Shown in pieces: positions 30,372 through 35,686 of a stretch of DNA of 64,000 bases. The DNA is taken from assembly GCF_025420485.1 (NCBI RefSeq), contig NZ_JAOEFD010000005.1, positions 62,001-126,000 on the forward strand, read 5' to 3'. Each line of letters begins with the position of its first letter. Position 1 is the stretch's first letter. Made by a program: the position numbers and the translations under genes. This stretch comes from Nesterenkonia marinintestina. GTDB taxonomy: Bacteria; Actinomycetota; Actinomycetes; Actinomycetales; Micrococcaceae. Below the pieces are notes generated by a model. It did not search any database, had not been told where the DNA came from, and saw only the letters and a program-made list of their open reading frames with translations.

Positions 30372-30410
30372 GACCCTCCGGGGACGCCGCGCCCGACCCC
30401 CTGCCCCGCG

Positions 30411-30501
30411 TCTCCCCCGAATGCACACCACACCCCGTGCATCTCCCCCGAATGCACAGGTCCCCCGTGAACGAACGGGGGACCTGTGCATTCGGGGGAG
30501 A
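30411..30501. repeat. Hairpin element A, left of the AbiEi-like gene
   Basis: Two perfectly complementary 27-base arms (30442-30468 and 30475-30501) enclose a 6-base loop. A further half copy of the left arm, TCTCCCCCGAATGCACA, lies just outside at 30411-30427 in the same orientation. The core is shared with hairpin element B at 31.8 kb. The element stands between the pdxK stop and the 3' end of the AbiEi-like gene. Confidence 0.9.
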
Positions 30502-30546
30502 CGTGTGAGCTGGGAGAGCCCCGTCGGGAGCCTCTGAGCCGCGCAC

Positions 30547-31611
30547 TCATCCTCCGTGGCTGCCGAGCCGCGGCAGACCCAGCCTCGTCAGGCGAGCCGC
30601 AACTCCGTCGAAGCGCCCCAGATCGTGCCACCCCCACCGGCCGACTCGCGCGCCGGTGCTCCGCAGCAGGTCCTCCCGCTCCTTCTCCTCGACGACGACG
30701 CCGACGGCGTCGAGTCCGCCGCGCATCTCCTCGGAACGATACTTGGCGCGCCCGTCGAACTCTCCGATCACACCGAACTCCGCCCACTAGAAGTCCACAT
30801 AGATCTCCCGCCCGTCGACCACGAAGCGCTTCTGCAGCGTGGGTTCCGGGAATCCCCATGCCCTCAGACGCATGCGGGAGATCGACTCCCCCGGTGAGTC
30901 GGCCCCCGGGTCCGCCAGGCGCCACCGGTCCCGCCACAGCGCCTCGTGTCGACGCGGTCGCAGGTGGTCCGCCCACTCGGCCCACAGTCCCTGATCGATG
31001 ACCTGTCCCTCCTGCCGCCATCGGCGCATGGCCGCATCCAGCACGACGACGCCGGCGTCGCGCGACATCCTCGGCACCGTGTCGATGAGGTTCAGCATCA
31101 GGGGGTCGGCCCAGGTCCTCGCCTGCCCTCCGTCCGCGCACGTGAGGTGCACCGCTTCGGCCGGCAGCGCCGCTCCGCCGGAGTGCAGAGCCGTCCGCAG
31201 CTCTTCTCGGGTGATCCCCCGCCGCAGCGCCGCCTCGATGCGGCGGGTCCTCGGCACGCCGGCGGTGACGGTGGTCGCACGCTGCCGTCCGACCTCCTTC
31301 CTCCGACGCGCCCGAGTGCACACGAACGGCGGCACGCTGATCAGCGGCAGATCCCGCACCAGGAGGGCCGCCTCCCGGCACATCACGGCGTCGTCGTCCG
31401 AGGCGGCGTCGGCGAGGACCGCGAGCCGGTAGCGCTCCCACGGCGGAAGCCGGCCCCACACCCCGCTCTCGACGTAGACGCCGGTCCGAACTCGGAGGAG
31501 GTCTCCACGACGCACCGCACGGGAGAACACCGTGCTGCTCGGCACACCGTCCGAGTAGAGGATCAGTCGGCTGTCCGTGTGGGATCGGGGGCACGTCTCG
31601 AAGCTCGTCAT
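30547..31611 (-). pseudogene. AbiEi-like/DUF559-like protein gene with in-frame amber codon
   Basis: The frame from the ATG at 31611 encodes an N-terminal AbiEi-antitoxin-like wing (starting near residue 10, with GVYVESGVW) and a middle part of the type found in solitary actinobacterial AbiEi proteins. The C-terminal part begins like a Vsr/DUF559-type PD-(D/E)xK nuclease. A TAG codon at 30787-30789 stops it after YVDF, at residue 274. The same frame continues without further stops for 79 codons (WAEFGVIGEFDGRAKY, then EKEREDLLR) to a TGA at 30547. These are just the expected downstream nuclease motifs. A single point mutation or readthrough explains this. The intact length would be about 354. 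The gene is flanked on both sides by related hairpins. Confidence 0.82.
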
Positions 31612-31764
31612 CCGTCCACCGTGCGCCCGACGACGGCGGCCGGTCAGCGATCCTCCCGGACCTGTGGAGAGGATGTGCCGCTCTCATCCGGCGCCGGAGG
31701 GCTGTGGAGGGACGCCCGACGTCGTCGCCCACTGACCCCGCCCCAGCACCCCACCCACACCCTC

Positions 31765-31862
31765 GCGTCTACCCCGTTTGCACACGTCCCCCGTGCCTCT
31801 TCGGGGGACGTGTGCATTCGAGGTAGACGCATGAGGTGGGGTGGGCGTTCGGGGTAGACGCA
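31765..31862. repeat. Hairpin element B, right of the AbiEi-like gene
   Basis: Arms 31765-31793 and 31802-31830 (29 bases, three mismatches) enclose an 8-base loop. A further half copy of the right arm, GCGTTCGGGGTAGACGCA, lies outside near 31844-31862. The sequence is related to element A, and the extra half copy is on the side away from the gene in both. Apart from this element, the 385-base gap 31612-31996 holds only the likely TAATAT -10 region (31950-31955) of the acyl-CoA dehydrogenase gene. Confidence 0.88.
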
Positions 31863-31996
31863 CGGGTGGGGCGATGATCCGCGCACCTCGGGGTCCGGAA
31901 CGGACCAGCCGGATCCTCGTCACGATTCCCCTCAGAGGTGACCGGCGAGTAATATGACTGGCATCACGGCCTGCACGCCCCGCCTCAGGAGGACCC

Positions 31997-35614: not shown

Positions 35615-35686
35615 ATCGAGTCCCCGATTCCTGCGGCGTGTCGGGCCGGAGACGGCCGAACACGCCGCAGGAATCGGGGACTCGAT
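35615..35686. repeat. Long intergenic hairpin, perfect 27-bp arms
   Basis: Arms 35615-35641 and 35660-35686 are perfectly complementary over 27 bases. The 18-base loop holds a second short stem (GGCCG/CGGCC). It lies between the convergent stops of kbl (35610) and sdaA (35703), so it probably ends transcription in both directions, although it has no T-run. It equals the 4.7-kb hairpin in arm length but not in sequence. Confidence 0.9.

Follow-up and report, generated by a model that had tools for sequence, protein, structure and literature searches.

Genes of one family, whose product is predicted to combine an AbiEi-like part with a nuclease, are paired with flanking palindromes, and this pairing is real and general. 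One member lies in the window, the 64,000-nucleotide stretch of a Nesterenkonia marinintestina contig that was analyzed. The window locus probably represents, in interrupted form, a system that is widespread in actinomycetes and in which genome-specific palindromes accompany a nuclease gene on the chromosome in a REPtron-like manner, the enzyme being unrelated. The REP/RAYT-like layout proposed from the window is supported well beyond it.

The window locus

The stretch 30398-31871 contains a single gene, bounded on either side by a 106-nt inverted repeat; complementarity between the two repeats is 78%. The features of the locus, in window coordinates, are:

30398..30503, plus strand: left inverted repeat (outer half copy and hairpin A), complementary to 31766-31871
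30409..30427, plus strand: left outer half copy, left of hairpin A, from repeat comparison within the window
30442..30501, no strand: hairpin A, arms 30442-30468 and 30475-30501, 27/27 paired, loop of 6, 3' of the gene
30550..31611, minus strand: AbiEi-like/Vsr-like (DUF559-type) gene with an in-frame TAG at 30787-30789, family assigned from homologue matches
31765..31830, no strand: hairpin B, 26/29 paired, loop of 8, 5' of the gene
31766..31871, minus strand: right inverted repeat (hairpin B and outer half copy), pairs with 30398-30503
about 31841..31871, minus strand: right outer half copy, right of hairpin B, from repeat comparison within the window

The initial annotation described hairpins A and B as sharing a core and as standing in a mirror arrangement with outward half copies. 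Both descriptions were accurate: the core TCTmCCCCGwwTGCACA is present in each hairpin, and the hairpins with their half copies make up the inverted repeats. Read on the minus strand, the frame begins with the start codon at 31611 and, the TAG aside, ends at the stop codon 30550-30552. The TAG sits just ahead of the nuclease motif, and the gene is an interrupted copy. Hairpin B begins 154 nt upstream of the start codon and hairpin A ends about 50 nt beyond the last stop. The two adjacent genes encode a phosphomethylpyrimidine kinase and an acyl-CoA dehydrogenase, and no AbiEii toxin was found beside the gene at this locus.

Domains of the protein

The window protein matched the Pfam AbiEi model PF13338 weakly (E=0.027, below the cut-off) and gave no DUF559 match, because the in-frame stop removes the nuclease part. 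When 30 members of the family alignment were evaluated, the AbiEi model of PADLOC was matched by 30/30 and DUF559 by 4/30. The AbiEi-like N terminus and DUF559-like nuclease motif of the initial annotation are thus recovered in homologues, the former in all 30 members and the latter in four, while in the window protein itself one match is subthreshold and the other missing. Fold prediction gave an N-terminal match to the AbiEi-like antitoxin fold and a predicted Vsr-like catalytic fold for the C-terminal domain, in which candidate nuclease residues are conserved. In this prediction, an AbiEi-like N-terminal part and a C-terminal Vsr/homing-endonuclease-like nuclease form one protein.

AbiEi antitoxins bind inverted repeats. 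The N-terminal fold match and the PADLOC result liken the protein to the AbiE type IV toxin-antitoxin system; it differs in that the AbiEi-like part is joined to a nuclease. Homing endonucleases of the Vsr-like (EDxHD) type, I-Bth0305I among them, are known to be encoded in introns and phages. The predicted catalytic fold is the likeness to these enzymes, whereas here the gene is chromosomal, has dispersed palindromes and carries an AbiEi-like module. No paper combining AbiEi and DUF559 was found in the open-access PMC literature, in agreement with the initial annotation, which knew of no description of such a DUF559 unit. Likewise, in the parts of the open-access DUF559 literature consulted, none was found concerned with repeats.

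Paired palindromes flank most homologues

The gene family was found in 28/30 Nesterenkonia genomes, that of the window included, and a profile scan of named genomes confirmed at least 577 relatives, of which the best 80 were kept. For every unit, its upstream flank was aligned to its downstream flank, each 350 nt long with a few coding bases added. The 99th percentile of permuted pairs was attained by the unit's own flank pair at 67/106 loci in a set with a few duplicates and at 66/100 after de-duplication. The extreme scores among permuted pairs probably come from related units with common flanks; the neighbouring genes of the same loci were a stricter control. A score of at least 20 was reached by 52/75 named units and by 0/228 neighbour genes, and with wider flanks 66 of the 100 de-duplicated units passed as opposed to 1/189 neighbour genes. 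The 34 units without a paired repeat are scattered over the tree. The window unit scored 48.5, and since the maximum among the 228 neighbour genes of other loci was 18.5, its pairing of gene and hairpins exceeds chance.

A second sample was taken from 296 class genomes drawn evenly, with one best-scoring locus per genome. Besides the window's genome it gave 29 loci, of which three without the expected motif were dropped; 21 of the 26 kept passed the flank test. Permuted pairs also passed in 8/260 cases because several of these units have repeats in common. The initial annotation had held that its hairpins would be a chance neighbourhood if homologues usually lacked them, and suggested looking for the same hairpins around homologues; about two thirds of those tested carry paired palindromes of their own. 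Two members with paired repeats are in records labelled as other than Actinomycetota, one in a record named Sporosarcina (Bacillota) and one in an Acidobacteria-labelled MAG, reflecting either transfer or a mislabelled assembly.

The hairpin family in the window's own genome

In the 2.58-Mb, 37-contig genome of the window, pattern search and BLAST located nine copies of the hairpin A/B family, seven of them outside the window. The stems covary: 12 cells were changed on both sides in the nine copies compared with 3.4 in shuffles, and 0/500 shuffles were as high. The 29 other Nesterenkonia genomes gave only one-mismatch matches, without a hairpin. By a crude gene caller, two of the seven sites outside the window are between divergent genes, one between convergent and three between same-direction genes, and one is at a contig end.

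The genome encodes three further homologues of the window gene, and none of the seven sites is beside them. The homologue on contig 32 has its own, different hairpin pair (locus positions 1290-1351 and 2511-2572), of which a dispersed copy is found on contig 11 (locus positions 747-808). The contig 35 homologue had no flank pair above threshold, and the contig 34 homologue is the most distant of the three. The initial annotation would have read family hairpins elsewhere without such a gene as a sign of ordinary terminators. They do occur at seven other places, yet this is what a REP-like system predicts. Another long hairpin in the window (35615-35686, 32/34 pairs) is unrelated to the A/B family, and scanning 14 further loci of the same genome revealed no copy of it.

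Dispersal of the repeats

Fourteen hairpins and 14 arm-shuffled palindromes were searched against 13 genomes. Among 150 listed of the 353 matches, 149 were to the genome's own unit family and one (in G030) to another family; none of the 150 was to an arm-shuffled palindrome. The counts are lower bounds in 10/13 genomes (at least 25 candidates), and the sites among the matches listed, each count including two unit copies, number at least 26 in G031, 23 in G032, 16 in G034 and 11 in G036 (Williamsia sp. 1138). In G005 and G011 the matches listed (2 of 3 and 3 of 6) were the unit's own copies only. In most genomes tested the same palindromes are thus dispersed, mostly between genes.

By the crude gene caller, the 16 sites in G034 were 8 convergent, 7 same-direction, one inside a frame and none divergent, and the 23 examined in G031 were 6 convergent, 12 same-direction, 5 inside a frame and none divergent; the 11 in G036 were 8 convergent, 3 same-direction and none divergent (unit copies included throughout). 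The distance to the nearest stop codon was often 0-40 nt in G034 and G036, and more often 30-120 nt in G031.

The possibility was considered that these long hairpins at gene ends are ordinary terminators and neighbour the gene by chance. In G034 and G036, many copies are indeed no more than 40 nt from a stop codon, frequently where two genes converge. However, pairing was seen in only 0/228 and 1/189 neighbour genes, the upstream paired copy often begins 130-230 nt ahead of a start codon, and the repeats are specific to their own genome among the matches listed. This explanation is extremely improbable.

Alternatively, the protein could be an AbiEi-like binding or regulatory factor, with the palindromes acting as its operators or as terminator-like RNA elements. 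The nuclease domain would then serve defence or control, and the repeats would have spread in some other way. The binding of inverted repeats by AbiEi antitoxins fits this, many repeats at 3' ends of genes could end transcription, and two of the seven own-genome sites outside the window were called divergent, a promoter-like place. However, 0/33 non-frame sites in G034 and G031 together and 0/11 in G036 were called divergent, the candidate nuclease residues are conserved, and palindromes of about 65 nt on both sides with tens of further copies would be needless for single operators. Regulation through the repeats is considered unlikely, although it is still a live rival.

Repeat layout and co-divergence with the protein

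Among 57 units compared, repeat sequences differ unless the proteins are close. A repeat was in common in 8/10 pairs with a protein identity of at least 0.60, compared with 1/1586 pairs below 0.60, and the Mantel correlation between protein and repeat was 0.41 (0/2000 permutations as high).

Despite the differing sequences there is a common layout, in which a motif of about 7 nt repeats 19 nt on, in the same direction, within many of the arms. A clear axis was present in 43 of the 57 repeats, and 33 arms were long enough for the layout test. At offset 19, 14 of these arms matched at 6 or more of 7 positions as opposed to 1.1% of shuffled arms; offset 20 gave three, and offsets 11, 16 and 23 gave one each. 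The second sample gave 8/29 arms at offset 19 compared with 2.3% in shuffled arms, some of the 29 being the two flanks of one unit and hence non-independent, with four each at 18 and 20 and three at 16.

In the two other families examined (G034 and G031), conservation is largely concentrated in the motif copies, and the spacer is variable, with possible mispairing. Covariation was clear in the window family alone; in G031 it was weak and G034 showed none, so the folded hairpin is perhaps not what is recognized. Recognition may instead depend on the four copies of the motif in DNA, with no need for a perfect hairpin. At stem position 20/42 of the G031 family, 17/23 copies were unpaired, mostly with G opposite G; a kept mismatch beside a Vsr-like nuclease is suggestive.

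Turnover of copies and mobility of the unit

Three congeners of Williamsia sp. 1138 were searched with the sequences flanking nine of its dispersed copies. Many matching sites keep a copy-sized gap. Strain 1135 lacks the copy at one site (flank identity 94%), W. soli at two (91% and 85%) and W. maris at a fifth (78%), and a fourth site, in W. soli, holds a truncated remnant. The junctions at the copy-less sites are ragged and without target duplications, so gain and loss of copies are indistinguishable there.

Flanking DNA was in common in 17 of the 22 unit pairs selected for comparison, indicating that the unit is mostly inherited in place. The five other pairs include two with close proteins, L132/L136 and L133/L136. 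Flipped units between the same neighbours occur in Williamsia (L148 vs. L150) and, in a second lineage, in L278 relative to L273, L287 and L291. At the latter site the unit is present in 7/12 genomes of the genus; four have a different reading frame instead and one could not be judged. In L310, the frame replacing the unit is followed by a different palindrome containing ATGATCAT; the ends of the relatives' units there begin AATGATCACG.

These flips and absences make past movement of the unit possible. The signs of whole-unit mobility are inverted ends, flips and variable presence, and no clean empty site or target duplication was seen. For the small mobile unit envisaged in the initial annotation, the REP/RAYT-like layout is supported; the 1.45-kb unit itself may have moved in the past, though most compared pairs share their flanks.

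An insertion-sequence-like unit would explain part of this, the gene and its terminal inverted repeats moving as a whole and the dispersed palindromes being solo ends or MITE-like derivatives. Consistent with such an element are the 106-nt inverted repeats in the window, the TIR-like ends AATGATCACGT of one unit group, which occupies at least three sites when judged by flanks of about 0.9-1.3 kb and is flipped at one, the flipped Williamsia unit and the four genus genomes without the unit at the same site. However, common flanks predominate, the dispersed copies have no target duplications, and ordinary recombination between inverted repeats can also flip a unit. Furthermore, no relative was confirmed in viral contigs, and 72,556 plasmid records held two partial matches. 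A whole-unit insertion element is somewhat unlikely, and is the second live rival.

Comparison with REPtrons and related systems

As described in parts of two papers, REPtrons consist of a TnpAREP/RAYT gene and REP/BIME repeats, the palindromes flank the gene, and the repeats are intergenic, mostly between convergent or same-direction genes; the gene is chromosomal and mostly inherited in place, and protein and repeat co-diverge (PMC8266576; PMC3733652). Layout, dispersal, gene-end position, inheritance in place and co-divergence are accordingly common to both systems, so far as these sources go. Flanking repeat copies were found here in the window unit and in two thirds of the de-duplicated units, and intergenic dispersal in the same genome was found, among the matches listed, outside G005 and G011.

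REPtrons have an HUH tyrosine transposase, whereas here there is an AbiEi-like and Vsr-like enzyme, and no match to the Y1 transposase model PF01797 (E<=0.01) was found in 30 family members. The repeats here are about 60-70 nt with the motif recurring at 19 nt per arm, the copies are few to tens (lower bounds) and not hundreds, and members were found almost solely in Actinomycetota. TIRtrons/TIRYTs are alike in that inverted repeats flank the gene and can form a repeat family, and differ in having a tyrosine transposase rather than a Vsr-like nuclease, as given in part of PMC3733652.

It could be argued that RAYT/IS200-type transposases made the repeats and that the nuclease gene is a passenger, since the layout equals the REPtron layout as far as the latter is set out in part of PMC8266576. 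However, no RAYT-type (Y1) match (E<=0.001) was present in 13/14 unit-bearing genomes, the sole exception, G035, having one. This explanation is very improbable and largely refuted. Given the missing Y1 matches in family members and genomes, the system works like a REPtron yet is none, and it is set down as new in kind because it has no component in common with REPtrons. If any layout of an enzyme and dispersed palindromes counts as one kind, the two are of the same kind.

Proposed mechanism and significance

Most likely, the AbiEi-antitoxin-like N-terminal module would read the repeat, binding the motif of about 7 nt that occurs twice, 19 nt apart, in each palindrome arm. The C-terminal Vsr/homing-endonuclease-like domain would then cut at the repeat, and copying or repair after the cut would spread the repeats and keep them at gene ends, the enzyme thereby causing the spread. 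Two copies around the gene may hold enzyme and repeats together. Several observations run against this mechanism, namely the 34/100 unpaired units, the listed G005 and G011 copies that are only the unit's own, the limited covariation, the interruption of the window copy, and the ragged Williamsia junctions without target duplication, with one truncated remnant.

On balance, we lean towards a second, independently evolved partnership of enzyme and repeat, in which AbiEi-guided Vsr/homing-type nucleases of Actinomycetota would propagate and preserve palindromes of their own, specific to each genome and built on the 19-nt double motif, with repeat specificity evolving in step with the protein. 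If this is true, REP-like repeat populations have more than one origin, and the enzymes behind them are chemically unrelated. Profile matches (E<=1e-15), which may include more distant DUF559-type relatives, were found in 164/296 class genomes and 78/115 genera, and the system could account for many unexplained palindromes in actinomycete genomes. It would also suggest what the proteins of two plasmid records, labelled there as no more than hypothetical, may do, and the many natural pairs of protein and motif would be material for a DNA-recognition code.
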